24,976 nucleotides of DNA from a virus, in the IMG/VR virus record IMGVR_UViG_3300028809_000063, positions 1-24,976 of that record. One strand, given 5' to 3'. This document shows, piece by piece, positions 1 through 24,976 of this stretch. The notes under the pieces were generated by a model. The model was not told the DNA's origin and ran no database searches. It saw only the letters and a list, made by a program, of their open reading frames with translations. The translations under genes and the position numbers were made by a program. Position 1 is the first letter of the stretch. Every line of letters starts with the position of its first letter.

Positions 1-1942
1 ACGCGACACTTTGCTACAGTATTTTTATGGAGATATTCCAGCACCGGATTCCGTTGATGAAGAAGGAGTGCCGACCACCTCGACGGTTGTATCGACGGAT
101 GTTCGTGATACCGTCATGGCAATCATGCCGTCACTCATCCGCATTTTCTGCGCGCCAGAGCACATTGTTTCATGCATGCCGAACCATAATGGTCAAGAGG
201 AGATGGCCAAGCAGGCTACGGAATACATAGAGTATGTGTTCTGGGAGGACAATCCTGGATTCCTGCTGCTACACGACGCATTCAAGGATGCTCTTACGAC
301 GAAGACGTGCGTGACGCATTGGTACACCGACAATGATACCGAAGTGGTGACGCAAGAATTCGAGAATATCACTCAGGAGCAACTCCAGTTCCTCATTTCG
401 GAGAACGAGACGATCGAAGTGCTCGAGGCGAATGCTAGCTCGACGCAGCCAGATATGCTCGAGACTGTTTCGCTGCGCTGGGAAGTGAGCAAGCCTACTT
501 TAAAGATCGTGGGCATTCCGCTCGACGAGTTCCGGGTGGATCGGAAGGCGCGCAGCGTGGACGATGCGTCATTGATTGGGTTCCAGACCATCAAACGAAT
601 TGGCGAACTGGTGGCGGCTGGTTATGATGAAACCATACTTAGCCAGTTCACCGGGGCGACTCAGCCATATTCTGCAGACCGGATATTCCGAAATGTCGGA
701 CTGGATGAGAACAGCCCTCTCGAAGCATTCGAGATCGACTACGGAGAGTATTACGTTCGTGTCGATAAAGACGGGGACGGCATCGAAGAACTCCGGAAAA
801 TTTGCACAGTTGGCAGTAATAATACGATCATCGCGGACGAACCCGTTCAGTGGGCGAACTTTTCTGTCGGTTGCCCCGATCCGAAGCCGCACACGTTGAT
901 CGGGGATTGCCCCGCCGATTTGGTTACTGATATTCAGCGGATTAAGACGAATATGCTGCGCGGGTCGCTCGACTCGCTTGCGCAATCAATCTGGCCGCGA
1001 ACAGTTTTCAATGAGCTGTTGGTGAACGTGGATGATGTTCTTAACGAAGAGATCGGGGCTGCAATTCGTACAAGAGGCGCACCGCAAGAGACCCTTATGT
1101 CCATCGCCCACCAGTTTGTGGGCCAGCCGGTCTTTCAGATGTTTGACACTATGGAGAGGCTCCGGCAAGTTCGTACCGGCATATCGGACGCGTCTAAAGG
1201 CATCGATCCTAAAGCACTCCAGAGCACGGCGATTACCGGCGTCGAAGCCATTATCTCTGGAGCCCAAGAACGAATTGAGCTTATCGCTCGACTCATGGCT
1301 GAAACCTGGCTCAAACCCATCTTTAGAGGACTCCTCCGAGAAATAACGAACCACCCGAACCAGCAGCGAACCATTCAGCTCCGCGGCAAGTGGACAGATG
1401 TTCAGCCGAGCACTTACGATCCTAACATGCGCATTTCGGTGAACCCCACGCTCGGTAAGGGTTCGGACGTTGCGCGGCTGATGGCTCTGCAGGAGGTCAA
1501 ACAGACCCAGTTGCTAGTCATCGAGAAGTTCGGGGTCAGCAATCCGGTAGTCGGGCCGCAGGAGTTTATCAACACCGTAACCGACATGATGGCGATCGCG
1601 AACGTCAAGAACACGCAACGTTACTTCAAGGATATCCCGCCTGAGGTGATGGAACAGATCATGAATGCGCCGAAGGATCCCGATCCGGCTTTGGTGCTTG
1701 CACAGGCCGAGATGGAGAAGCGCCGCGTTGAGATGATCAAGGAGCAGGCGAAGCAGGTGGCGGACCAGCGGAAGCTCAAGATCGACGATGATTTTAAGCG
1801 CGACCAGTTGATGGTTACGAGCATGCTCGACGCCGCCAAGATCGAGGCGCAATTCGCGGTAGACGTAAACGAGCAGAGAATTTTGCAGGAAAATCAAGCT
1901 AACGAATTGGCACAGGAAGATGAAGGATCAGTTCCAGCTTGA
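1..1942 (+). CDS. Phage portal protein (5' end outside window)
   Basis: Portal proteins form the dodecameric ring at the capsid vertex through which DNA is packaged and ejected. The frame is open from base 2 (reading Arg-Asp-Thr-Leu-Leu-Gln) with no stop, so the N-terminus lies upstream; the TTG at 11 is not a convincing start. About 645 residues are visible. The assignment rests on a podovirus-like portal pattern (DGDGIEELRKI, then a GDCPADLV stretch, then helices around SDASKGIDPKAL) and on order: portal, small protein, scaffold-like protein, major capsid protein. The C-terminal 100 residues are charged and helix-prone (EMEKRRVEMIKEQAKQ), as in the barrel or crown of podovirus portals. The stop overlaps the next gene by 23 nt. 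Family is inferred from pattern and position, not from a search. Confidence 0.85.
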   Translation, partial: RDTLLQYFYGDIPAPDSVDEEGVPTTSTVVSTDVRDTVMAIMPSLIRIFCAPEHIVSCMPNHNGQEEMAKQATEYIEYVFWEDNPGFLLLHDAFKDALTTKTCVTHWYTDNDTEVVTQEFENITQEQLQFLISENETIEVLEANASSTQPDMLETVSLRWEVSKPTLKIVGIPLDEFRVDRKARSVDDASLIGFQTIKRIGELVAAGYDETILSQFTGATQPYSADRIFRNVGLDENSPLEAFEIDYGEYYVRVDKDGDGIEELRKICTVGSNNTIIADEPVQWANFSVGCPDPKPHTLIGDCPADLVTDIQRIKTNMLRGSLDSLAQSIWPRTVFNELLVNVDDVLNEEIGAAIRTRGAPQETLMSIAHQFVGQPVFQMFDTMERLRQVRTGISDASKGIDPKALQSTAITGVEAIISGAQERIELIARLMAETWLKPIFRGLLREITNHPNQQRTIQLRGKWTDVQPSTYDPNMRISVNPTLGKGSDVARLMALQEVKQTQLLVIEKFGVSNPVVGPQEFINTVTDMMAIANVKNTQRYFKDIPPEVMEQIMNAPKDPDPALVLAQAEMEKRRVEMIKEQAKQVADQRKLKIDDDFKRDQLMVTSMLDAAKIEAQFAVDVNEQRILQENQANELAQEDEGSVPA

Positions 1943-3311: not shown

Positions 3312-4304
3312 ATGCCTAACAAAGTAGCAGGCGCTTTCACGACCTACAACGCTCAGGGCAATCGTGAAGACTTGTCGAATGCGATCTACAACATCGATCC
3401 GTTCGATACGCCGATCATGTCCTTGGCTCGTCGTCGTAACGTGAAGGCTCGTACATTCGACTGGCAGACCGAAAATCTGCCGAACGTCGATCCCAACAAT
3501 GCCCAGCTCGAAGGTTTTGAGCTGACCAGAGCCGGTGGACAGGCAACTGTCCGACTGACCAACGTCTGCCAGATTTCGTCGCGCGATGCGACCGTTTCTG
3601 GTTCTCAAGAAGCCTCGGATGCAGCTGGTAAGGGCTCTGAAATGGGCCACCAGATGGCGATGAAGTCCAAGGTGCTCAAGTCGGATATCGAAACCATCAT
3701 GTCGGGACGCCAAGCCCGCGTCGATGGCGACGATACTACTCCTCGCAAGACCGAAGCGATTGCACACTGGATCGCTCGTGCAGTCGACCGGAACGCGGTT
3801 GCAGGTGATGCCGTTATTGGAGTCACGGCTGGCCTTCCGGTTACCGCAACCGGCGCGTTTGCCGCTGTCGTAGCGGGTTCTCAAATCGCTCTGACCGAGG
3901 TAATGCTCGGTGATGCGATGGAAAGAGCCTATGGCAACGGTGCTCGTCCCGATACGTGGGTGGTTCCACCTGCTATCAAGCGTACTGTCTCCACCTTCAA
4001 GGGCCGCGCAACCACGCAGGTTCTCGTTGGGAAGACGGAAGTGGTCGAGACGGTCGACATTATCGCCACCGATTTCGGTCGCGTGAAGGTGATGCCGTCC
4101 TTGTGGATTCCGACTGACATCGGGCTGCTGCTCGATCCGGATTTCGTGGCTCTAGGGTATTTCCGGAACTTCCGGACGTACCAAATCGCGAAGATCGGTG
4201 ATGCGGAAACTCGAATGATCCTCGCTGAATGGGGAGTGGAGATGCGGAACCCGCTCGGCCACATCCTGTTCAACGGAATCAAACAGGGCGCCGTCATTAC
4301 GTAA
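3312..4304 (+). CDS. Major capsid protein, SU10-type (DUF5309)
   Basis: A 330-aa protein that should form the icosahedral shell with an HK97-like fold. The N-terminal pattern NREDLSNAIYNIDPFDTPI followed by a DWQTENL segment is characteristic of the SU10-type major capsid (DUF5309) family. Length is right for the family. The middle is Ala/Gly/Val rich (about 165-200) and the C-terminal half has the usual beta-rich character (RVKVMPSLWIP, LDPDFVALGYFRNF). The start has AGGTAGAG a few bases upstream. It is the last gene before a strong hairpin terminator, so head genes can end transcription here. Recognition is from memory of the family pattern. Confidence 0.9.
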   Translation: MPNKVAGAFTTYNAQGNREDLSNAIYNIDPFDTPIMSLARRRNVKARTFDWQTENLPNVDPNNAQLEGFELTRAGGQATVRLTNVCQISSRDATVSGSQEASDAAGKGSEMGHQMAMKSKVLKSDIETIMSGRQARVDGDDTTPRKTEAIAHWIARAVDRNAVAGDAVIGVTAGLPVTATGAFAAVVAGSQIALTEVMLGDAMERAYGNGARPDTWVVPPAIKRTVSTFKGRATTQVLVGKTEVVETVDIIATDFGRVKVMPSLWIPTDIGLLLDPDFVALGYFRNFRTYQIAKIGDAETRMILAEWGVEMRNPLGHILFNGIKQGAVIT

Positions 4305-4375: not shown

Positions 4376-4570
4376 ATGCCGTTCAAGTCACAAGCGCAGC
4401 GGAATCTCTTCCACGCAGCTAAGAATGACCCCTCGGTTCGGAGACGCACCGGAATATCCAAAGGGACCGCGGAGAAGTTCACCGAACACGATTCGGGCGG
4501 GAAACTGCCCTATCACAAGAAGAAGAAGCACGCTCCGGGGGTGGGCATCTTATCAAAATCGAGGTCGTGA
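4376..4570 (+). CDS. Small basic phage protein of unknown function
   Basis: A 64-aa, strongly basic protein beginning MPFKSQAQRN, with a KKKK run near residue 50. I chose the ATG at 4376 because CGGAGG lies 6-11 nt upstream; the same frame is open further left but would start inside the capsid gene. Short proteins starting MPFKSxAQ are common in phage genomes near head genes and have no established role; nucleic-acid binding is possible from the charge. The stop overlaps the next start by one base (TGATG). Confidence 0.7.
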   Translation: MPFKSQAQRNLFHAAKNDPSVRRRTGISKGTAEKFTEHDSGGKLPYHKKKKHAPGVGILSKSRS

Positions 4571-5142
4571 TGTTTGACCGAGACATTTATTTCGACAGCG
4601 TTCGGAACATTATGTTCGAAGGAGCGCTGACGCAACAGCAAGTAGATGGTCAGTCCGTCATTCTCGCGGTGTGGGAATATCAGGCTGGCGGAACACCGAT
4701 GACGGATATCCGCTGGCTTGCTTATATGCTCGCTACGACTTACCACGAAACGGCTACGAAAATGTGGCCGATCCGTGAATATGGGCAAGGTTCCGGGATG
4801 AGTTACGGCACCACCTATTATGGGCGTGGGTATGTTCAGCTCACTTGGGAAGAAAATTATCGAAATGCCTCGGCAGCGCTTGGTCTCATTGATGATCGCG
4901 ATCTTATCAAGTATCCTGATTTAGCTTTGGACAGTCTTATTGCTGTCCGTATAATGTTCCGGGGTATGGCGGAAGGGTGGTTCACTGGCAAAAAATTGGG
5001 CCAGTATTTCAATGCTGAAGAAGATGACCCAATTAATGCCCGCCAAATTATCAATGGAAATGATTGTGATGAAATGATAGCTGAATATCACGATCATTTC
5101 CTCGTTGCTCTGAATACAGCTAGTGTTCCGCTTAGTACTTGA
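4570..5142 (+). CDS. GH19 chitinase/lysozyme-like muralytic enzyme
   Basis: A 190-aa protein of the glycoside hydrolase 19 superfamily, which in phages cleaves peptidoglycan glycan strands. The catalytic-acid region is YHETATK (Glu60), a second acidic residue follows in WPIREYG (Glu70), and the GH19 substrate-cleft signature YYGRGYVQLTW covers 83-93. The C-terminal NARQIING pattern (156-163) is also typical. There is no signal peptide or membrane segment, so as an endolysin it would need a holin. It is placed between capsid and adaptor genes, far from the holin candidates near 14 kb. It could therefore be the endolysin or a virion-associated lysin. The ATG at 4570 (TGATG overlap) is preferred to the GTG at 4567. 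Confidence 0.88.
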   Translation: MFDRDIYFDSVRNIMFEGALTQQQVDGQSVILAVWEYQAGGTPMTDIRWLAYMLATTYHETATKMWPIREYGQGSGMSYGTTYYGRGYVQLTWEENYRNASAALGLIDDRDLIKYPDLALDSLIAVRIMFRGMAEGWFTGKKLGQYFNAEEDDPINARQIINGNDCDEMIAEYHDHFLVALNTASVPLST

Positions 5143-6447: not shown

Positions 6448-6803
6448 TGGCTGACTTAAGCGAGTCTGATTATGGGTTGGGCGATTATGGCGATGGGTAC
6501 TACTCTCTTCGCCCAATTTGGTTATTTGAGTCTGCTGTTTCCATTCTTGTTGACGCTGATTCTGATCTTGCTGTGTCTGCTTTTGGGGGATTTGAAGCAA
6601 CTGTTAGTATTTCATTGGACGCTGATAGCTCCCTTAGCGTTTCTGATAGCTTCGAATCTGCGGTTTCGATCCAATTTGACGTTCGTTCCATCGAGAATTT
6701 CGATGTGTTTTGGGAAGGTTGGATTCCTATAACTGGGGGCGTTGGAAATTGGCAACCAATTGGACCGGATATGAGGCCAAATAAGCCATGGTCGACACTA
6801 TAA
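6447..6803 (+). CDS. Phage protein with GYG-type N-terminus, unknown
   Basis: A 118-aa acidic protein. The start is Gly/Tyr/Asp rich (YGLGDYGDGYYS), a pattern common in small phage structural proteins found beside fibre genes. The middle holds two or three imperfect repeats of about 24-30 residues (FESAVSILVDADSDLAVS, FEATVSISLDADSSLSVS, FESAVSIQFDV), suggesting a repetitive beta structure. The C-terminus is Trp rich. The ATG overlaps the previous stop (TAATG) and the gene overlaps the large fibre gene by 16 nt. No function assigned. Confidence 0.65.
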   Translation: MADLSESDYGLGDYGDGYYSLRPIWLFESAVSILVDADSDLAVSAFGGFEATVSISLDADSSLSVSDSFESAVSIQFDVRSIENFDVFWEGWIPITGGVGNWQPIGPDMRPNKPWSTL

Positions 6804-9754
6804 CTCCTAATCTAGGACTTACGAAGCCAGAAGTTGGCGCTTCTCGCGATGCGTGGGGCGCGAAGCTGAATGGTAATTGGGATATTGTTGATGGGTTATT
6901 GAATTCCCCAAATTTTGTGGGTGATCCTAAAGCTCCCACTCCTGCAACTGCGGATAACGATACTAGTATCGCTACAACGGCATTCGTAAAAGCTCAGAAT
7001 TATGTCAGTCAGGCTTTCGCTGGAGCGACGTATGCCCCGATTAGTTCTCCGGTGTTGTCGGGTAATCCGACAGCGCCTACGCCATCAGCTGGCAATAATA
7101 GTTTAAGTATTGCGACGACTGCATTCGTTACGTCTGCGGTTGGTGTTGAAGCTACGGCTCGTGTCAATGCTGACGCATTAAAGGAGGATAAGTCAAATAA
7201 AGGCGTTGCCAATGGTTATGTGCCGCTCGATGCTTCCACTAAAATCGCATCAACTTATTTGCCAGCATATGTTGATGACGTGGAGGAATACCCCAATCTA
7301 GCATCATTTCCGGTAACCGGCACGGTTGGGATAATTTACGTTGCTCTTGATACTAACAATACTTACCGATGGAGCGGATCGACCTACATTCAGCTATCGT
7401 CTTCACCGGGGTCTTCGGACGCTGTTCCAGAAGGATCGGTCAATCTATATTACACAGCAGCGCGTTCGGTGCTGAAAGCTGATCTGGCCAGTCCGATATT
7501 TACCGGCGATCCGCGAGCACCAACACCTGCTACTGCTGATAATGACACTAGCATTGCGACGACGGCTTACGTTAAGTCTAATCTCGCGAACTACGTACCA
7601 ACTAGTGGTTACACCGCTGCTGATGTCCTCTCAAAACTTCTAACCGTTGATGGAACTGGTAGTGGCATCGACGCGGACCTTCTGGATGGACAATCTATAG
7701 CTTTCTTTGCTACGCAGAGCAGTCAATCGGCGCAGGACGCTCTGATTAATCTGAAGGCCCCGCTTGCCGATCCGACGTTTACTGGTACGGTGGTTGTGCC
7801 TACTTATTCGCCATTAACGGCGTCGGGCAATGTTGCGTCTACTGCGTTCGTTGCCAATGCAATCTCAACATTTCAGACTAGCGCTAATATTGCTTACGTC
7901 AATACTAGCGGCGATACCATGACAGGCAAGCTTGTCACGGCAGCTCCTATTGCTGGAGGAGCTGGGTTAAACCTTGCCCCTGGAACAGCTCCCACTTCTC
8001 CGGTGGACGGTGATATCTGGGTGACGACTGGCGGAACTTTTGCTGTTCGTCTGAGTGGCAGTACTTATACACCCGCTCATACTAATTACGTCAATAATTT
8101 CACTGTTAAACAGAACTTTAAGTCAGGGGATGCTAGCAGCGCGTCTATCAACATACCACACGGAGTTGTTCCTGCATCGCCGGTTAACGGTGATTTATGG
8201 ACGACAACTACAAGCGCTTACGCACGTATCAATGGCGTTACGGTTGATCTTGGCTCGGCCGGAACGACGATCTCCGATACGCCACCTTCCTCGCCTGTTG
8301 TTGGTCAGCTTTGGTGGGAAAGTGATAGTGGTAATCTGTACATTTGGTACAACGATGGTACCTCCACCCAATGGGTTCACGTTAATGGCGCGGTTGTAAC
8401 TGGTGGTGGGGGTGGCGTTTCGTCGGTTTCTGGAACGGCTCCTGTAGTTTCTTCTGGGGGTTCTGCCCCTGTCATTTCGATGCCAGCAGCGAATATTTCA
8501 ACTAGCGGCTATTTAACGCTTACTGATTGGGCAACGTTTAATAGTAAGCTGAGCGATGCGCCGAATGATGGCTTACAATATGTTCGTCAAAGTGGCGCGT
8601 GGAATAGTTTTATCGACGCTGAAACTCTCGATGGGCTTGATCGTGCCTTCTATCAGTCTCGCGGTAACCATACTGGTCAGCAAGCACAGTCGACCATCAT
8701 TAACTTGACGTCTGATTTAGCGCTGAAGGCACCGCTGGCTGATCCGACCTTCACTGGTACTCCGGCAGCGCCTACTCCAGATACGTCTAGCAATAGTACC
8801 CGCATTGCTACGACTGCTTATGTCAGGTCGATGAACTATGCGCCGTTAGCTTCTCCAGCTCTTACCGGCACCCCGACAGCGCCAACAGCTGGAGTTGGCA
8901 CCAATACGACGCAGATTGCAACGACTGCGTTTGTAACCGCAGCAGTAGCTGTTGGTGGAGGCGGTGGCGGTGCGCCATTGGATTCTCCTACGTTCACTGG
9001 AGATCCGAAAGCGCCGACACCAGCAACAGCCGACAACGATACCAGCATTGCTACTACGGCTTTCGTCAAGGCGCAGGGTTATCTCTTATCTTCGTCTTAT
9101 ACTGCAGCTGATGTGTTAGCGAAGCTGCTAACCGTTGATGGTGCCACATCGGGGTTGGATGCTGACCTTTTCGATGGTCAGGACGGCGCTTATTACCTTA
9201 ATCGCGCTAATCACACCGGTTCACAGGCGCAGGGCACTATTACTAATCTCACGTCTGATCTAGCATTGAAGGCTAATCTGGCAGACCCGACTTTTACTGG
9301 TACGCCTGCTTGTCCCACAGCGGCGGTTGGAAGCAATAGTACCCATATCGCTACGACTGCATTCGTTAAGTCGCAGGGATATTCGACACTAGCTTCACCT
9401 ACATTTACGGGCACTCCTGCGGCTCCGACAGCAACGGCTGGAACCAATACGACGCAGATAGCTACGACAGCCTTCGTGACTGGTGCGTTGGGTTCTTATT
9501 TGTTGTCTGCGAGCTATACCGCTGCTGATGTGTTGGCGAAGCTGCTCACCGTTGATGGTGCCGGAACCGGTCTCGATGCAGATTTGCTCGACGCACAGTC
9601 AGGAACCTACTATCTCGCGCGCGGCAACCACAGTGGAACGCAGACGCTAGCGACGATTTCCGATGCTGGAACCGCTGCGTCGAAGAATATCCATATTAGC
9701 ACGACTGCGCCCGGTTCACCGGCTGTTAATGATCTCTGGGTGGATATCACCTAA
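6788..9754 (+). CDS. Large repeat-containing tail fibre protein
   Basis: A 988-aa fibre. The N-terminus (about 6-32) carries the motif TPNLGLTKPEVGASRDAWG, probably the tail-attachment part. The shaft has nine copies of a unit reading approximately SPTFTGTPAAPTP..TTQIATTAFV. These alternate with three copies of YTAADVLAKLLTVDG leading into LLDGQ..YYL.RGNH.G.Q, a common phage-fibre repeat. A Gly-rich hinge (TGGGGG, near 537) and a GTAPVVSSGG..PVIS module lie in the middle. There is no enzymatic domain; the end (SPAVNDLWVDIT) is short and beta-like. GAGG lies 11 nt upstream of the ATG. It is the first of five receptor-binding candidates and likely makes a trimeric fibre. Confidence 0.88.
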   Translation: MVDTITPNLGLTKPEVGASRDAWGAKLNGNWDIVDGLLNSPNFVGDPKAPTPATADNDTSIATTAFVKAQNYVSQAFAGATYAPISSPVLSGNPTAPTPSAGNNSLSIATTAFVTSAVGVEATARVNADALKEDKSNKGVANGYVPLDASTKIASTYLPAYVDDVEEYPNLASFPVTGTVGIIYVALDTNNTYRWSGSTYIQLSSSPGSSDAVPEGSVNLYYTAARSVLKADLASPIFTGDPRAPTPATADNDTSIATTAYVKSNLANYVPTSGYTAADVLSKLLTVDGTGSGIDADLLDGQSIAFFATQSSQSAQDALINLKAPLADPTFTGTVVVPTYSPLTASGNVASTAFVANAISTFQTSANIAYVNTSGDTMTGKLVTAAPIAGGAGLNLAPGTAPTSPVDGDIWVTTGGTFAVRLSGSTYTPAHTNYVNNFTVKQNFKSGDASSASINIPHGVVPASPVNGDLWTTTTSAYARINGVTVDLGSAGTTISDTPPSSPVVGQLWWESDSGNLYIWYNDGTSTQWVHVNGAVVTGGGGGVSSVSGTAPVVSSGGSAPVISMPAANISTSGYLTLTDWATFNSKLSDAPNDGLQYVRQSGAWNSFIDAETLDGLDRAFYQSRGNHTGQQAQSTIINLTSDLALKAPLADPTFTGTPAAPTPDTSSNSTRIATTAYVRSMNYAPLASPALTGTPTAPTAGVGTNTTQIATTAFVTAAVAVGGGGGGAPLDSPTFTGDPKAPTPATADNDTSIATTAFVKAQGYLLSSSYTAADVLAKLLTVDGATSGLDADLFDGQDGAYYLNRANHTGSQAQGTITNLTSDLALKANLADPTFTGTPACPTAAVGSNSTHIATTAFVKSQGYSTLASPTFTGTPAAPTATAGTNTTQIATTAFVTGALGSYLLSASYTAADVLAKLLTVDGAGTGLDADLLDAQSGTYYLARGNHSGTQTLATISDAGTAASKNIHISTTAPGSPAVNDLWVDIT
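6900..9500 (+). repeat. Nine-copy protein repeat in the fibre shaft
   Basis: Nine units of about 32 residues (core TFTGxPxAPT followed by IATTAFV) are spread over the gene and interleaved with longer LLDGQ/NHTG units. Two copies (6920-6997 and 8999-9076) encode the same 26 residues but differ in 17 of 26 codons, every change being a synonymous third-position change. So the repeats are conserved as protein, not as DNA. Confidence 0.85.
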
Positions 9755-11055: not shown

Positions 11056-12122
11056 GCTGGCCGGACGCTTCTACCACTGGAACGAGTGGAACTCTTACAT
11101 CGGTTCCCGGCTCCGCTACATCTGGCACCGGCTGGGCTTGGGATGGTGTCGAAGGAGGCGTCTACACGACGGGTGATAATGCGACCATTCAGAATCTCAG
11201 CGTAAACGGCTTCATCTTCGTAAGGAACGGCGACACTGGCAACACTATCAGCAACTGCAAGTGCACGCTCGACAGTAACGATGTATTTGGCATCTACACC
11301 GAGGGCCATAATACCATCATTCAGGACTGCGAGGTTATCGCACCGGGTGGTAGCGATGCAGGCGGCATCGGCATCAATATGATCTGGATCGAGCAGGCGT
11401 CGGGCTGCACTATCACGCGCTGCGAGACGAATGGCGGCGAGAACGGCCTGATGCTGAGCGGCATCAACTGCACGGTCACCGACAACTACATTCACGGCAT
11501 CGTGCTGGAGACCCTGCCGGGCGATCCTCACTCGGACGGCATCCAGCTGTTCGGCGGTCAGGCTTGCAACGGCACGTTGATAAGAGGCAACAACGTCATT
11601 GCTCCGACGACGTGGGCCACCTCTGCTATAATCATGGGCGACAACCTGAACCTCACGGTCGACGCTAATCGATTCCGCGGTGGCTATGCTGTGTTCCGCT
11701 ACTACAAGCACAACAGCTGCGTCTATACGAACAACCGCATCGGCGATAAGTCACCCGTGGCTGGTGGAGCGCTGGTTACCGATAATGGTGGTACCGGCAC
11801 GCCGACATGGTATGGCAACGTTAATGACGATAACAGTAACTTGATCGCAATGGACGGCACGGAGACGGAGGCGGAGATTGTTATGAGTCGTGAATACACC
11901 ATCGGTGGGCCTTTTTTCGGTGGTACGCTATCCACCACGACGGCTCGCGATTATGCGGCGCTGAATTCGGCGATCACCGAGGAAGCGGCTGCTGGAGGTC
12001 CCAATGTTAAAGTATGGAATGGTAGCGCTTGGGTCCAGAAGCCACTCAAGATATGGAACGGTAGCGCTTGGGTCCAGAAACCGCTCAAGGTGTGGACTGG
12101 TTCAGCTTGGAGAACACTTTGA
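11052..12122 (+). CDS. Second beta-helix tail spike with C-terminal repeats
   Basis: A 356-aa protein. Residues about 40-240 show the rung pattern of a right-handed beta-helix, with alternating strands and N/D/G turns (ATIQNLSVNGFIF, NTIIQDCEV, CTITRCETNGGENGLML, GTLIRGNNV). A DPHSDGIQLFGG segment is the kind of acidic cluster seen in pectate-lyase-like sites. A catalytic role is possible but not shown. The last 35 residues are three copies of a KVWNGSAWVQKPL unit. ATGA overlap with the previous spike and a one-base overlap with the next gene imply co-translation. Confidence 0.75.
   Translation: MSWPDASTTGTSGTLTSVPGSATSGTGWAWDGVEGGVYTTGDNATIQNLSVNGFIFVRNGDTGNTISNCKCTLDSNDVFGIYTEGHNTIIQDCEVIAPGGSDAGGIGINMIWIEQASGCTITRCETNGGENGLMLSGINCTVTDNYIHGIVLETLPGDPHSDGIQLFGGQACNGTLIRGNNVIAPTTWATSAIIMGDNLNLTVDANRFRGGYAVFRYYKHNSCVYTNNRIGDKSPVAGGALVTDNGGTGTPTWYGNVNDDNSNLIAMDGTETEAEIVMSREYTIGGPFFGGTLSTTTARDYAALNSAITEEAAAGGPNVKVWNGSAWVQKPLKIWNGSAWVQKPLKVWTGSAWRTL
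12008..12115 (+). repeat. Three 39-nt tandem repeats (WNGSAW units)
   Basis: Three in-frame copies encode K-V/I-W-N/T-G-S-A-W. The 20 bases at 12021-12040 recur exactly at 12060-12079; the third copy (12087-12110) has diverged. Short Trp-rich repeats like this recur at the ends of phage appendage proteins. This makes it a likely recombination hinge just before the next spike gene. Confidence 0.85.
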
Positions 12123-13918
12123 TGCCTGCATTCGATTTTCCTAATGCTCCTATCGTCGGTAGTATTTATGCTCCGACTGGTGGTCCGGTCTACCAGTGGA
12201 ATGGATTTGCGTGGGTATTAATAACCCCAGACACGAGCCGCTTGTTCACCCCAGCCGACATGCGAATGGCGCGTTCGATGGTTTGGTGGGACCCATTGGA
12301 CCCTGCGACGATTACTAAAAATGTTTCTGATCAGGTTAGCCAGATGACTAGCAAGGGCGGGCGGTCTTGCACGGCGACCCAGACCGTCGATGCCAACAAG
12401 CCGATACTGGAGGCTGACGGGCTCCGCTTCAATGCGAGCCCCGCCCAGATGAACACTCCGGTCGCATCGAGTTCTAATTTTAGGCACAACCGCTGGACGC
12501 TGTTCATCTTCAAGGCGAACATAGCTGGCGCAGTTGCTGCAAACGGCAATTTCTATCGGTTTAATGGTTCAGCCACATCGCATGGCGACAGGCAACCGCT
12601 AGCGTCGTGGAACAAGACCAGCAACGTCGCCAACGTGAACTGGTACGCCAATAATAGCAACAATCCGCTCCCCATCACCATCGTGGACAACACCTGGAAT
12701 TTCATGCTTAGCCGCATCCAGACAAACTCGGATGGGTTCTCGGTAGGCGGGACGCACTACAACTCCCTTAACGGCGGCACCGAAATTTCTACCGGTGGTG
12801 GACTGTGCCATCTGCAAATCCAGAACTCCCCTGTGGCTGGCATGATTGGGCACGAAACAGCCAACGCCTTTGATTGGAAGATGCGGCATATTTTGGTTGG
12901 CTCGGAGGAACTAACCCAAGCCGAAATCCAGCGATTGCAGGGTTGGGCTGCGTGGCAAATATATGCGCTCAATGGAACTATGGTTCTTCCGAACACCCAT
13001 CCATATTACGTTGCGGCACCTACTTTCAGCGAAAGTGAACTTGCTGCGCAAGAACCATCTGAACGGACTAGCGTTGCTGAGTTCGACGCTGCTGTGTGGA
13101 GCATTGCCAACCGTTGGACGGGCGTGTTGGATCGTACAGGTCTAGGAACGCCGACGTTTCAGGAGGACTTCACCGTCGACCCGCGAACCAATGAGGTGAT
13201 TGGGGAAGGGCCGTGGTTCAGTCCGGCGATCAGCAACACCGGCAACACTGATTTCTTTGCCAAGGGGTCTGCTAACGACACAGGTTCGGTCGTCGGTGGT
13301 CAGTTCATCATTAAACCGAAACGCGGTAGTTCTGGTGGCAGAACGTGGTCTACTTCGCTGCAGACTGTTTCTCGCACCGGCCGCATCGGCTACGTTCAGA
13401 CATATGGCATGTGGGAGATCAAGGTCGCGCTGTTCGATCTCGACAGCACGCTCAACCCGGAATGGAGGCCCTCCGTCTGGTTCAAGAGTAACAACTTCAA
13501 CCTCAACCCGTGCGTCCCCTACGTCGAGTTCGACCTGTTCGAGCTGTACAATCGGGAGGACCACAACGTCCACTCCAGCCGGTGGATACATAAGGCGGAC
13601 TTCCCGCATCCCGACGATATGCAGAGCGACAAGTTCCAGAGTCAGCAAGGCTCCTCCGACATCGCCAATGCTGCGAAGTGGAACATCGCTAATTTGTTCG
13701 ACGGCGTGTTGCGTACATGGGTTCTGGACCTGCGCGACCAGACCAACGCGTTTGTATACCTTGAAGACCACGAGTTCGCGCGCTGCCCGATCCTGCCGGA
13801 ATGGCGAGTTCCATGGTATATCATTCTGTGGTGCGATTGTACTACCATATCTCCGACCACCGATGTCGGGCCGTGGGACCTAATGCATATTGATTCTGTC
13901 AAGGCGTGGGCGACATAG
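12122..13918 (+). CDS. Lectin-like plus GH16-like tail spike (depolymerase candidate)
   Basis: A 598-aa protein in three parts. Residues 1-40 hold a short phage-appendage motif (GSIYAPTGGPVYQWNGFAWV). Residues about 50-300 resemble a concanavalin-A/LamG-like lectin: ARSMVWWDPLDPATIT at the start, RWTLFIF inside, and GWAAWQIYALNGT..LPNTHPY at the end. Residues about 345-598 match glycoside hydrolase family 16: YGMWEIKVALF, EWRPSVWFKS, then VEFDLFELY. This contains the catalytic E-x-D-x-x-E set (Glu469, Asp471, Glu474), with a downstream NVHSSRW segment. GH16 enzymes retain beta-1,3/1,4 or galactan specificity, so capsule or exopolysaccharide cleavage is plausible (inference). The start at 12122 is one base into the previous stop; a frame extension to 12068 lies in the previous gene. 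Confidence 0.75.
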   Translation: MPAFDFPNAPIVGSIYAPTGGPVYQWNGFAWVLITPDTSRLFTPADMRMARSMVWWDPLDPATITKNVSDQVSQMTSKGGRSCTATQTVDANKPILEADGLRFNASPAQMNTPVASSSNFRHNRWTLFIFKANIAGAVAANGNFYRFNGSATSHGDRQPLASWNKTSNVANVNWYANNSNNPLPITIVDNTWNFMLSRIQTNSDGFSVGGTHYNSLNGGTEISTGGGLCHLQIQNSPVAGMIGHETANAFDWKMRHILVGSEELTQAEIQRLQGWAAWQIYALNGTMVLPNTHPYYVAAPTFSESELAAQEPSERTSVAEFDAAVWSIANRWTGVLDRTGLGTPTFQEDFTVDPRTNEVIGEGPWFSPAISNTGNTDFFAKGSANDTGSVVGGQFIIKPKRGSSGGRTWSTSLQTVSRTGRIGYVQTYGMWEIKVALFDLDSTLNPEWRPSVWFKSNNFNLNPCVPYVEFDLFELYNREDHNVHSSRWIHKADFPHPDDMQSDKFQSQQGSSDIANAAKWNIANLFDGVLRTWVLDLRDQTNAFVYLEDHEFARCPILPEWRVPWYIILWCDCTTISPTTDVGPWDLMHIDSVKAWAT

Positions 13919-21825: not shown

Positions 21826-22656
21826 ATGGCCTCGTACACCAATGATCAAATAAAGCAGGCCATAGAAGCAGCGAAAGCCGCTGGCGATACCGAAGCGGTT
21901 ACCGATCTAACGGCTATGCTTGCGCAACCGCGACCAGCTGAAGAAGTGCAGGCTGAATATGGTGATCTGCCTTGGTACAAGAAGCTTGGGCAAGCCGTTG
22001 TCGACGATGCTCGCATTATGACTCACGGGGCTACTTTCGGCAATTCACCGGGCATTACCGCTACTCTTCACGATTGGCTTGGCGGAGCAGGCGACTACGA
22101 GACGAACAAGGCCGAGCTAGAGAATAAATATAAAGAATCGGCAACGCGCGCTGGGAATGCTGGTGTTGTAGCCGAACTACTTGGAGGTGTTCGTACCGGA
22201 ATGCCTATTATGAAGGCTGGAGCGGCTCCGATCAGAATGGCGGGCGAAGCTATTGAAAAAATCCCAGCTGTTGGGAAATATTTATCCCCAATCGCCAGAG
22301 CTAAACTGCTGGCGGAAGGTGCTCCGGGTGGCGCTGTAATAGGTGGATTGACCGCAGCTGGGAATAATGAGAGCATCCCAGAAGGACTGGTAAAAGGTGG
22401 GGCAGTCGGCGGCGCTCTGGGCGTTCCGCTAGGATTGCTTGGAAAAGCTGGCGGATGGTTGGTTGGTAAGGGTGTATCCGATAAGATCGGCGGAGCGGTC
22501 AACGAAATGGCTGAGCAATATATAGGGGAAGCGAGTAAAGTAGCTGGCCGAGATATTCGCGACACTTTAACCGCCACGGGGATACTTGGAGCTGAAAAGA
22601 TCAAAGAGGCAAATAGACGTCTCAGGAAAGAACGTGCAGGTAAGTACTTTCGGTGA
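21826..22656 (+). CDS. Gly-rich hydrophobic ejection protein candidate
   Basis: A 276-aa protein with GGAGG just upstream of its ATG. Residues 7-32 (DQIKQAIEAAKAAGDTEAV) form a helix-hairpin found at the N-terminus of large phage internal proteins. A following region reads ARIMTHGATFGNSPGITATL, also typical of that group. Residues about 163-227 are Gly/Ala/Val rich and amphipathic or membrane-seeking (GAVIGGLTAAGNN, GGALGVPLGLLGKAGGWLVG). The C-terminus is basic (RRLRKERAGKYFR). It is shorter than large internal proteins of this kind, and its stop abuts the stop of the minus-strand gene. A C-terminal truncation is possible but cannot be judged here. Confidence 0.6.
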   Translation: MASYTNDQIKQAIEAAKAAGDTEAVTDLTAMLAQPRPAEEVQAEYGDLPWYKKLGQAVVDDARIMTHGATFGNSPGITATLHDWLGGAGDYETNKAELENKYKESATRAGNAGVVAELLGGVRTGMPIMKAGAAPIRMAGEAIEKIPAVGKYLSPIARAKLLAEGAPGGAVIGGLTAAGNNESIPEGLVKGGAVGGALGVPLGLLGKAGGWLVGKGVSDKIGGAVNEMAEQYIGEASKVAGRDIRDTLTATGILGAEKIKEANRRLRKERAGKYFR

Positions 22657-24063
22657 TCAGGCAACAGCTCTGGAGGAACGCCTGAGCTTCGAAAAGACAG
22701 TCTGGAATATGCTCTCCTTCATCTGGAGGGCGTTGTTGACTCGGTAATCGAGCGGGGTGCCGAATAGATCGACATAGATCACTTTTTCGGAGGTTTGCCC
22801 ATGTCTGTGGTTCCGATCCTCGACCTGGCTTCGGTCATCAAGGGAAAAGGTGTTTTCGAAAAATATGGTTGTAGCACAGCGGTTCTCAACTTCCGGCCCG
22901 CCCAGAAGCGTGAACCCATATTTAGATGCGCGTATCTGCGCGAGGAGCATCCGGCATTTCGGATCATTGTTGAACAGATCCTGCTGATGGCGCAAAGCCT
23001 CTGTGCTCATGTTCCCCTGAATCCATGCGGGGTTGTAATCAGCGAACGATTCGTTGAGAATTTTAAACGCATACCGGTGGTTATAGCAGACGATTACTTT
23101 GCCAGTGATTTCACGCTCAAGGATCTCCTTGATGAGTTTAACTCTGGGGTTAGCAGTCGGCGAGATAAGTTCAGTGACGCTACCATCTTCCTTAATAATA
23201 AACCCGCTTGCTATCTGAGCCAGCTTGATATATTTGGTGATGGCAGCTTCGACCGTTACGTTTTCGTCGTTCTCGAGCCAAAGAACGAACTCCTGCTCCA
23301 TCTGCCGGTATTGTTGGCGCATGAGCGGGGCCATCTCGTATTCACGTTGGGTATAGAGTTTCGGCGGGAGGTCAGTCCAATCGCTCTTCGTTGCCCGGAA
23401 AATAGCGTGATCCACTAGCTCCGAAAGGATGTCCTCATTTTGCGCCCCAATCACCTTTTTATTCATGTAGCCGCCCATCCGGCAGAAGGCCGTCTTGAAG
23501 GCGTAATAATTTTTACCGTCGAGCAGGCCGATCGCGCGCATTTGTCCCCAAAGGTCATGCGGGCCTTGCGTGATTGGCTTTCCGCTAAGGACGCGACGGA
23601 AGTTGAAGTGCTTGGCCAACAGGAGAGCGCTTTGGGTCTGCTCCGACTTGTTGTTTTTAAGCTGAATGCTCTCGTCAAATACGATAAAACAGGGCCGATT
23701 CTGGATGAACTTATAGATATAGTCTTGGACGTGTTGCGCCCTTATGGCCTCGTAGTTAACTATCAACACTGGTGGCCGATCGAAGGGACCACGGAGGAAG
23801 CGACTGTTATTGTAATCGTCGCCACTATTGTAAATGTGGGTGATGATATTCAAACCGTGCTTGGTAGCTTCATCAACCCAGCCCCCCTTAAATGAGTTCG
23901 GGCACACGACCACCATTCGGTGACATTCACCTTTGTTCACTTTGTCGAGGAAATCCATGTAGGCGACGAGGGTCTTTCCTAAACCCATTTCCATGAAGTA
24001 GGCGAATCCCTGCTTTGCCGACCCCGCCGAAAGGGCAGCCTGTTGAACATTTAGCAATTCCAT
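22657..24063 (-). CDS. SNF2-type DNA helicase/ATPase
   Basis: A 468-aa superfamily 2 helicase. Walker A is MEMGLGKT (24-31), Walker B is FDES (129-132) in the form DESIQLKNNKS, motif III is SGKPITQGPHDLW (160-172), and motif VI is QVEDRNHRHGQ (413-423), the SNF2 Q-x-x-x-R-x-x-R-x-G-Q signature. Motif IV/V region contains VIVCYNHRYAF and LLAQIRASKYGFTL. It should use ATP to translocate on DNA during phage replication or repair. A ribosome site AGGAG (24070-24074 on this strand) sits 6 nt before the ATG. It follows the MazG-like gene after a 59-nt gap with promoter-like boxes. Its stop abuts the late-gene stop. It is short but has the full motif set. Confidence 0.88.
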   Translation of the reverse strand: MELLNVQQAALSAGSAKQGFAYFMEMGLGKTLVAYMDFLDKVNKGECHRMVVVCPNSFKGGWVDEATKHGLNIITHIYNSGDDYNNSRFLRGPFDRPPVLIVNYEAIRAQHVQDYIYKFIQNRPCFIVFDESIQLKNNKSEQTQSALLLAKHFNFRRVLSGKPITQGPHDLWGQMRAIGLLDGKNYYAFKTAFCRMGGYMNKKVIGAQNEDILSELVDHAIFRATKSDWTDLPPKLYTQREYEMAPLMRQQYRQMEQEFVLWLENDENVTVEAAITKYIKLAQIASGFIIKEDGSVTELISPTANPRVKLIKEILEREITGKVIVCYNHRYAFKILNESFADYNPAWIQGNMSTEALRHQQDLFNNDPKCRMLLAQIRASKYGFTLLGGPEVENRCATTIFFENTFSLDDRSQVEDRNHRHGQTSEKVIYVDLFGTPLDYRVNNALQMKESIFQTVFSKLRRSSRAVA

Positions 24064-24085
24064 GACACTCTCCTAGCGATCCCCT

Positions 24086-24114
24086 AGTATAACACGCCCC
24101 TGCCTCGCCGTCTA
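24086..24114 (-). promoter_or_regulatory. Possible promoter upstream of the helicase gene
   Basis: Reading on the minus strand, TAGACG (24114-24109), a 17-nt spacer and TATACT (24091-24086) precede the helicase ATG by 22 nt, leaving room for the AGGAG site in the leader. The -35 matches 4 of 6 consensus bases and the -10 matches 5 of 6. The 8-mer TATACTAG also occurs 28 bp upstream as a second copy, so two start points are possible. Confidence 0.4.
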
Positions 24115-24122
24115 GTATATTT

Positions 24123-24518
24123 TCAATCCATTTTGGGTTCAGGCGTGTTGCGCCAGTCGGCTGATCCCCTATTTCGGATCGCTAAGAATATTAGGAACGC
24201 GAAATTAGCAGTGTCGAACAGCTCAATCGATGCGTTGGCATCTTCGATGTCCACTTGTATTTGTTCATTAAACTCCTCTACTTCGCCCAGCAACATATCT
24301 ACCATTCCAGGAATATCCGTGACTTCTGGAGTCCGCTTGTGAGCGTTCAGATGCAGCTTCCACAGCATTCCTTGGAAAAATTCTCTCAGCCGCTCTTCAA
24401 GTAGCTCTAGCGATTGCGGTAATCCCAGAGTCATGGGTAATATCTTCAACCCTAGGTCCTCGCCCTTCGATGACTTGGTAGGGCGGGACGCCGAAGGGTC
24501 GGTTTGTTTTGAGGTCAT
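24123..24518 (-). CDS. mazZ: MazG-like nucleotide pyrophosphohydrolase (MazZ candidate)
   Basis: A 131-aa all-helical protein. Residues 45-62 read like the first MazG helix pair (FFQGMLWKLHLNAHK). The metal-binding signature ExxE...ExxD is present: EVEE (79-82), 16 residues, then ELFD (99-102). In Z-genome phages the DUF550/MazG-type enzyme MazZ splits dGTP to dGMP and PPi, feeding PurZ. Here it is directly downstream of a PurZ-like gene, overlapping it by 122 nt in another frame. A strong AGGAG (24526-24530) seven nt before the ATG supports the long start; the first 35 residues are low complexity, and an internal ATG at 24434 is the alternative. A general dNTP-housecleaning MazG remains possible. 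Confidence 0.7.
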   Translation of the reverse strand: MTSKQTDPSASRPTKSSKGEDLGLKILPMTLGLPQSLELLEERLREFFQGMLWKLHLNAHKRTPEVTDIPGMVDMLLGEVEEFNEQIQVDIEDANASIELFDTANFAFLIFLAIRNRGSADWRNTPEPKMD

Positions 24519-24976
24519 CTAGGAACTCCTGTTGTTCATCCGGTGGGATATAGTTGAGAAAATTGGCGAACACGAAGTCTGGATGGTTGGCTTGCAACGC
24601 GTCATAGAATTGTTCCCAGCTGAACGTAGCCACCCTGCGAACGCGTTGCGTCACCGTGGTCAGTTCCGGTTCTACGCCTAGCTGTTCCCACGTGATTTCC
24701 TCTTGATCATCATACCAACTGCCTGATGAGAACCCATCCACGTCGCCTACTCGAATCGGGAAGGTACGGATCGACATATAAGTGCGTTTAACAGCGCTCG
24801 GCGGCAGGCCGGCATCGGTCAGACCCTGCGACACCGTGCACTCGCGTGATGTTGACTTCGGGTAAAATGGCTGATTGATCCCCAGCGAGAATCCCTGGGC
24901 AACCTCCATGATGTAAAAATTGGATTCTGGCTTGATGCGGTGATTTAGCATAGTTATATTAAGTGGCTGCTCCTTA
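24397..24976 (-). CDS. purZ: PurZ-like adenylosuccinate synthetase (5' end outside window)
   Basis: The frame stays open to the window edge, and the ATG at 24951 is probably internal; about 192 C-terminal residues are visible. Numbering from that ATG: VAQG (17-20) with YPKSTSRE (30-37) matches the PurA IMP-binding loop (GAQG...YP..TS). RTFPIRVG (62-69) matches the region before the substrate loop. LTTVTQRVRRV (97-107) matches PurA TTG/TTVT-x-R-x-RR. GRGPR near 163-167 matches STGPDR. PurZ uses dGMP plus aspartate and ATP to make the precursor of 2-aminoadenine nucleotide. The base-recognition TKLD of PurA is NFLN here (130-133). The MazG-like neighbour supports PurZ. A PurA used in ordinary AMP synthesis, or the PurZ0 branch, remains possible; the missing N-terminal catalytic residue would decide. 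Confidence 0.78.
   Translation of the reverse strand, partial: KEQPLNITMLNHRIKPESNFYIMEVAQGFSLGINQPFYPKSTSRECTVSQGLTDAGLPPSAVKRTYMSIRTFPIRVGDVDGFSSGSWYDDQEEITWEQLGVEPELTTVTQRVRRVATFSWEQFYDALQANHPDFVFANFLNYIPPDEQQEFLDDLKTNRPFGVPPYQVIEGRGPRVEDITHDSGITAIARAT
24526..24530 (-). promoter_or_regulatory. Ribosome site setting the mazZ start inside purZ
   Basis: AGGAG on the minus strand, 7 nt upstream of the ATG at 24518. It lies inside the purZ-like reading frame, so ribosomes translating purZ cross it. It is the main argument for the start at 24518 rather than 24434. Confidence 0.65.

Follow-up and report, generated by a model that had tools for sequence, protein, structure and literature searches.

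In sequencing, 2-aminoadenine (Z) is read as A. The Z cluster of phage S-2L comprises PurZ, MazZ-1, DatZ and PrimPol, and S-2L needs DatZ and has no DNA polymerase I (pol I); the phiVC8-type cluster comprises PurZ, MazZ-2, DatZ and the polymerase DpoZ; and the PurZ0 phages (Wayne, Archimedes; DutZ/DmtZ/DUF5664) are Z-genome phages without DatZ. The datZ gene has been described as co-conserved with purZ (PMC8342488) or as present in most PurZ phages (PMC12884076), and the family A polymerases of Z phages have been viewed as two groups of DpoZ, which match PurZ0 and PurZ (PMC8342488, PMC12884076). Ochrobactrum phage vB_OspP_OH (MT028492, Wolominvirus; OH below), the nearest described relative of the phage treated here, was presented in a paper that does not report its Z content and annotates the genes concerned as nucleotide salvage enzymes (PMC7139368). 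In the open-access literature, no report was found of a Z measurement for any member of this group.

The window, that is, the whole stretch of DNA that was analysed, is the entire virus record IMGVR_UViG_3300028809_000063 (24,976 bp), evidently a piece of a larger genome; the PurZ N-terminus, the polymerase and the early region lie outside it. The phage, an uncultured podovirus related to OH, is one of a large group that has hardly been studied. OH has a PurZ that is 55% identical to the window fragment (the top phage match of the synthetase) and the same operon order and pol I type as the group, but differs in carrying datZ (p35) and a MazG of the HKGRW type. The plus strand of the window holds the structural genes, starting with a portal (partial) and a capsid protein, both of SU10 type, and extending to about position 22656. 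On the minus strand, inward from the right contig end, the C-terminal 192 codons of a synthetase are followed by a MazG-like ORF of 131 codons and then by a helicase. The features are as follows.

2–1942, plus strand: portal protein, partial (SU10_portal, 4e-154).
3312–4304, plus strand: major capsid protein (SU10_MCP, 5e-78; 79% identity to that of OH), context for the virion module in common with relatives.
22657–24063, minus strand: SNF2/SF2 helicase, last gene of the purZ operon throughout the group (PF00176, 4.6e-16; PHROG 62, 2.6e-93; syntenic in relatives).
24064–24122, minus strand: gap of 59 nt between the mazG stop and the helicase start, the datZ slot of DatZ-bearing relatives (from gap sizes in relatives).
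24123–24518, minus strand: predicted MazZ-2-like MazG-type NTP pyrophosphohydrolase of a diverged 'HKxTP' subtype (catalytic residues, profile–profile match, four-helix model).
24397–24976, minus strand: purZ, C-terminal part of about 190 aa, predicted 2-amino(deoxy)adenylosuccinate synthetase (PF00709, PHROG 1211, PDB matches, tree, dGMP/ATP-site residues).
24526–24530, minus strand: AGGAG, possible ribosome-binding site of the mazG-like ORF, located within purZ (read from the sequence).

Three further genes of the window were noticed by eye: a chitinase/GH19-like lysis enzyme (4567–5142), a 988-aa tail-fibre-like protein with many similar repeats TFTGTPxAPT...IATTAFV (6788–9754) and a GH16-like polysaccharide hydrolase, a possible depolymerase (12068–13918).

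The pairing of PurZ with MazZ is known biology; new in relation to the open-access literature are the DatZ-free state of many members of the group and the type of their polymerase. It is very probable that the locus forms the nucleotide-pool part of a Z-DNA replication operon in an OH-related podovirus, acting by the mechanism proposed below.

The preliminary description had placed a PurA/PurZ-type C-terminus at the contig end and its N-terminus beyond it, and both are borne out: the frame 24397–24975 (192 aa) contains EVAQGFS, YPKSTSR, TTVTQRVRR and EGRGP, and its 5′ end runs off the contig. The protein matches PF00709 with 31.1 bits, above the cut-off of 27, and PHROG 1211 ('2-aminooxy adenylosuccinate synthetase') at 3e-32, and its top PDB matches are the PurZ of phiVC8 (1.2e-33) and that of S-2L (1.9e-21). 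The C-terminal half retains Gln190, Arg240-Val241, the TTVT loop, Arg280 and Asn305-Phe306 (numbering of S-2L PurZ), the residues to which substrate-site roles have been assigned in that enzyme (PMC8342488). Thus R-V before the PurZ insertion, TTVT, R280 and NFxN, which belong to the dGMP/ATP site, are all present in the window; position Gln308 is occupied by Asn, as in phiVC8, whose PurZ shares these dGMP/ATP-site motifs, and E. coli PurA deviates from the window at TTV and NFxN. The diagnostic Asp13 position lies off the contig and was read from full-length relatives instead, namely contigs L011 (83% identical) and L005. A profile-guided scan for PurZ led to 80 viral contigs, and the catalytic Asp13 of PurA is replaced by Ser in 86/86 aligned PurZ sequences other than the window, L011 included; in the group members displayed this Ser stands in a GSTGKG motif. 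The same replacement is found in phiVC8 and in the PurZ0 phages.

In the maximum-likelihood tree, which has a midpoint root only and a long PurA branch, the window pairs with L011 (99/93), and its group together with OH joins phiVC8, SH-Ab 15497, S-2L and other PurZ (99/96), apart from E. coli PurA and from PurZ0 (Wayne, Archimedes), which has a branch of its own; within PurZ, the clade of the window is separate from that of phiVC8. Residues and tree together rule out PurA and PurZ0 as the identity of the synthetase, and the phylogenetic check proposed in the preliminary description therefore places it within PurZ; grouping with host PurA and retention of the catalytic Asp, the outcome that had been named as contrary to a Z genome, did not occur. 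Judged by these features, the segment 24397–24976 on the minus strand encodes the C-terminal half of a genuine PurZ. A rival reading takes the synthetase for a PurA-like enzyme that uses IMP to raise the supply of ordinary adenine, the MazG for a housekeeping NTPase and the DNA for normal. It would agree with the PurA fold and with the nucleotide salvage described by the OH authors (PMC7139368), but is highly improbable in view of Ser at the Asp13 position in every full-length relative, the tree position within PurZ, the biochemically proven PurZ enzymes that head the PDB matches, and the linkage with a special pol I and with MazZ-2/DatZ.

Among the bacterial genome contigs searched, four matches were obtained, all of them distant (29–42% identity), and none indicated a host for the window's clade. 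Two metagenome-assembled 'bacterial' contigs, L121 (JAHFKN010000011.1) and L119 (CALMGO010000442.1), one of which is labelled Candidatus Gottesmanbacteria, carry PurZ-like genes in which Ser stands in place of Asp13; they are perhaps phage contigs binned with hosts.

The MazG ExxE-N16-ExxD signature reported beside the synthetase is indeed present: the ORF 24123–24518 (131 aa) has E79xxE82-16-E99xxD102xxN105. In an alignment of the window protein, the purZ neighbours of relatives and phiVC8 MazZ-2 (p26), residues E79, E82, E99, D102, N105, K54, L55 and K61 are invariant in 25/25 homologues, p26 included. As a single sequence, the window protein gave no significant match in library searches, and its probable identity as a MazG is based on profile–profile comparison, position and predicted fold. 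The profile of the HKxTP type matches that of the HKGRW type, found in OH-like phages and DatZ-bearing relatives, with an E value of 1.7e-19; against phiVC8 p26 the two profiles give 6e-7 and 2e-11, respectively, and OH p33 matches PHROG 9860 (phiVC8 p26) at 1.3e-6. The predicted structure is a four-helix model (pLDDT 89), and MazG-like proteins head the PDB list of its fold search, although with a helical fold of this small size the E values do not reach significance. MazZ-1/DUF550 was rejected as an identity, since profile comparison with S-2L MazZ, BUCT555 DUF550 and Bm1 p52 gave nothing significant; the MazZ-1 of S-2L belongs to another MazG family. The ORF is accordingly filed as a diverged MazZ-2, with a predicted function, and it adjoins purZ as the MazZ-2 of phiVC8 does.

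The overlap between the purZ and mazG frames amounts to about 122 nt when mazG is read from the ATG at 24518 and to 38 nt when it is read from its conserved core at 24434. The AGGAG sequence lies 7 nt 5′ of that ATG and is found in L011 and L005 too; considering that its bases also code for conserved PurZ residues, its conservation by itself does not prove a ribosome-binding site. Comparison of the window with L011 gives a dN/dS of 0.15 in PurZ and of 0.12 in the core of MazG, and therefore both are maintained coding genes under purifying selection. In a sub-clade formed by L099, L101, L107 and L117, datZ is present and no mazG is detectable downstream of purZ, the reverse of the state in the window. 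The genes of the Z pool are modular.

Because a true PurZ overlaps a diverged MazZ-2-type MazG, a Z genome, as proposed in the preliminary description, is the best inference for the phage of the window. What the enzymes do, whether and how far Z replaces A, and how dATP is excluded we infer from gene content and homology along the following lines. By homology, the MazZ-like MazG would convert dGTP to dGMP, and PurZ would join dGMP and aspartate, with ATP or dATP, to N6-succino-2-amino-dAMP; use of dATP as co-substrate has been shown for S-2L PurZ (PMC8342488). Host enzymes would yield dZMP and then dZTP, which the phage pol I, encoded just upstream and known from relatives only, would place opposite T. 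Most or all A of the virion DNA would then be Z, and many restriction enzymes would fail. When DatZ is lacking, dATP could be excluded by the polymerase, spent as co-substrate of PurZ or hydrolysed by the diverged MazG, or its exclusion could be incomplete.

The region beyond the contig end is known from relatives, in which the order is DNA polymerase I, PD-(D/E)XK-like nuclease, DUF6378, purZ, mazG, (datZ), helicase; this order is almost invariant across more than 80 contigs. L005 is part of a 44,026-bp genome (G004), which is effectively complete, since its helicase gene runs from the record end into the record start. PrimPol, a component of the S-2L cluster, is found in 15/15 genomes compared. 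The DUF6378 protein stands immediately 5′ of purZ in nearly every group member (L011: 4081–4482; L005: 9148–9525) and is predicted to be helical; it was considered as a further NTP-PPase and rejected on account of a low-confidence model (pLDDT 66) with no fold match.

The expectation that datZ would accompany purZ and mazZ, as in the usual Z clusters, failed in the window, where the mazG–helicase gap of 59 nt leaves no datZ in its usual slot. In members with datZ, the gene for this YfbR-like HD protein (PF12917; PHROG 7076, dATP triphosphohydrolase) lies between mazG (or purZ) and the helicase, and the gap measures 473–1052 nt, compared with mostly below 200 nt in DatZ-less relatives. After dereplication at 97%, datZ is present in the slot in 24 of the 58 scorable contigs and absent in 34, the nearest kin of the window among them, and at least seven changes between presence and absence are required on the PurZ tree. 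This HD dATPase is absent from the window and from its closed relative G004; where datZ occurs it occupies the mazG–helicase slot, although the missing part of the window's genome (about 19 kb by the length of G004) could yet hold it. In nine DatZ-less records of 42–45 kb, of which five (G004, G010, G011, G015 and G016) are apparently closed, to judge from end repeats or a gene that spans the junction, there was no match to PF12917, HD_3, PHROG 7076, dUTPase (DutZ) or DUF5664; the window's clade thus differs from the PurZ0 phages, which it resembles in lacking DatZ, by having no dUTPase-like or DUF5664 gene. The sensitivity of the PF12917 search is adequate, since it detected DatZ in 7/7 PurZ reference phages tried. 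A DatZ concealed in the mazG–helicase gap was likewise rejected: most gaps are too small, and the ORFs of the larger ones (35–153 aa) have no HHD motif. When the gene content of nine DatZ-less and six DatZ-bearing genomes was compared, no replacement gene common to the DatZ-less genomes stood out. In the lineage of the window datZ is lost, a difference from both OH and phiVC8, and no known substitute was found.

One explanation is that the HKxTP-type MazG hydrolyses dATP besides dGTP, which would make DatZ redundant. Absence of datZ was scored in 29/35 contigs of the HKxTP type versus 5/19 of the HKGRW type, MazG type and datZ are swapped together between the window's clade and L002/L004, and the DUF550 protein of SH-Ab 15497 reportedly hydrolyses both dATP and dGTP, as cited in PMC8342488. 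However, the MazG type changes only some three times on the tree, so that the strong association in counts is not independent evidence and MazG subtype as the driver of DatZ loss is kept only as a lead; moreover, six contigs combine an HKxTP MazG with DatZ and five DatZ-less contigs have the HKGRW type. This takeover by MazG is therefore regarded as unlikely.

Since datZ is absent and the polymerase is without the published DpoZ hallmarks, full replacement of A is not assured and mixed A/Z DNA is possible. According to this explanation Z is made but replaces A only in part, since dATP would persist in the pool of lineages that have no DatZ. The nine genomes without DatZ, HD_3, DutZ or DUF5664 speak for it, as does the lower Z content obtained when datZ and mazZ were omitted from the S-2L cluster in E. 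coli (PMC8342488). On the other hand, selectivity could come from the distinct pol I that is inherited along with PurZ, as it does from DpoZ in phiVC8 (PMC8599892), and PurZ itself is able to consume dATP (PMC8342488); a mixed genome in the DatZ-less lineages seems rather improbable on balance.

The preliminary description also anticipated a DpoZ-type polymerase beyond position 24,976. A pol I does lie just upstream in relatives, close to purZ as in the phiVC8-type cluster, but it is neither the phiVC8 nor the Wayne type of DpoZ. In the 62 pol I genes adjoining purZ in the group, insertions 2 and 3 of phiVC8-type DpoZ are absent, the F459 position is T in 57 and S in 5, the G548 position is S in all 60 that are readable, and L455 is retained in 7 and replaced by M in 55. 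The change of the helix-O Tyr to Phe (F459) is the sole phiVC8-type hallmark common to both DpoZ clades (PMC8599892). The helix-O motif of the group (KRMGMGLLTGMS in L211 and L224) aligns without gaps to that of E. coli (KAINFGLIYGMS), in which the position is Y766: it is Tyr in 11/11 non-Z polymerases, Phe in the phiVC8 and PurZ0 types, and Thr/Ser here, and has thus changed in all of the PurZ-linked pol I groups that were compared. Each of the three Z-linked polymerase sets forms one clade (100/100), and the set of this group and that of phiVC8 may or may not descend from one Z-polymerase ancestor (AU p 0.32). When the search was reversed and started from the polymerase, it yielded 80 contigs, in 75 of which purZ lies downstream, the other five ending 1.1–2.8 kb from the polymerase; wherever the contig reaches, purZ follows. 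As the helix-O motif was one pattern of this search, it tests the linkage to PurZ and not the conservation of Thr/Ser. Close non-Z relatives of this pol I were sought, and the best phage matches other than OH reach only some 30% identity. In L006 (6398–8127), pol I is read as two ORFs beside an intact purZ, owing to a frameshift or a sequencing error.

It is possible, though doubtful, that the group's pol I itself rejects dATP, with Thr/Ser in helix O contributing, and that DatZ is dispensable. The replacement of Tyr in 62/62 pol I genes found via purZ, at the very position where both known DpoZ types have Phe, is consistent with this; against it, the same pol I occurs in members with DatZ, the effect of Thr/Ser could instead be on fidelity or speed, and for phiVC8 no single residue accounts for selectivity (PMC8599892). 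More broadly, we propose tentatively, at somewhat below even chances, that this mostly uncultured podovirus group makes Z-DNA via a third Z-selective polymerase type (family A, helix-O Thr/Ser), and that many members, the phage of the window included, manage without a known enzyme for depleting dATP, this task falling to the polymerase and/or to a MazG with a new role.

DatZ has so far been regarded as core of the PurZ-type Z cluster, and this group suggests that removal of dATP is optional. It also suggests at least one further polymerase type in Z replication, with the helix-O Tyr position as a concrete candidate residue for the choice between Z and A. The DatZ-free window, L011 and L005, set against their DatZ-bearing sisters L002 and L004, offer a natural experiment on what full replacement of A by Z needs, and the DatZ-free members might serve to build simpler in vitro systems for Z-DNA.
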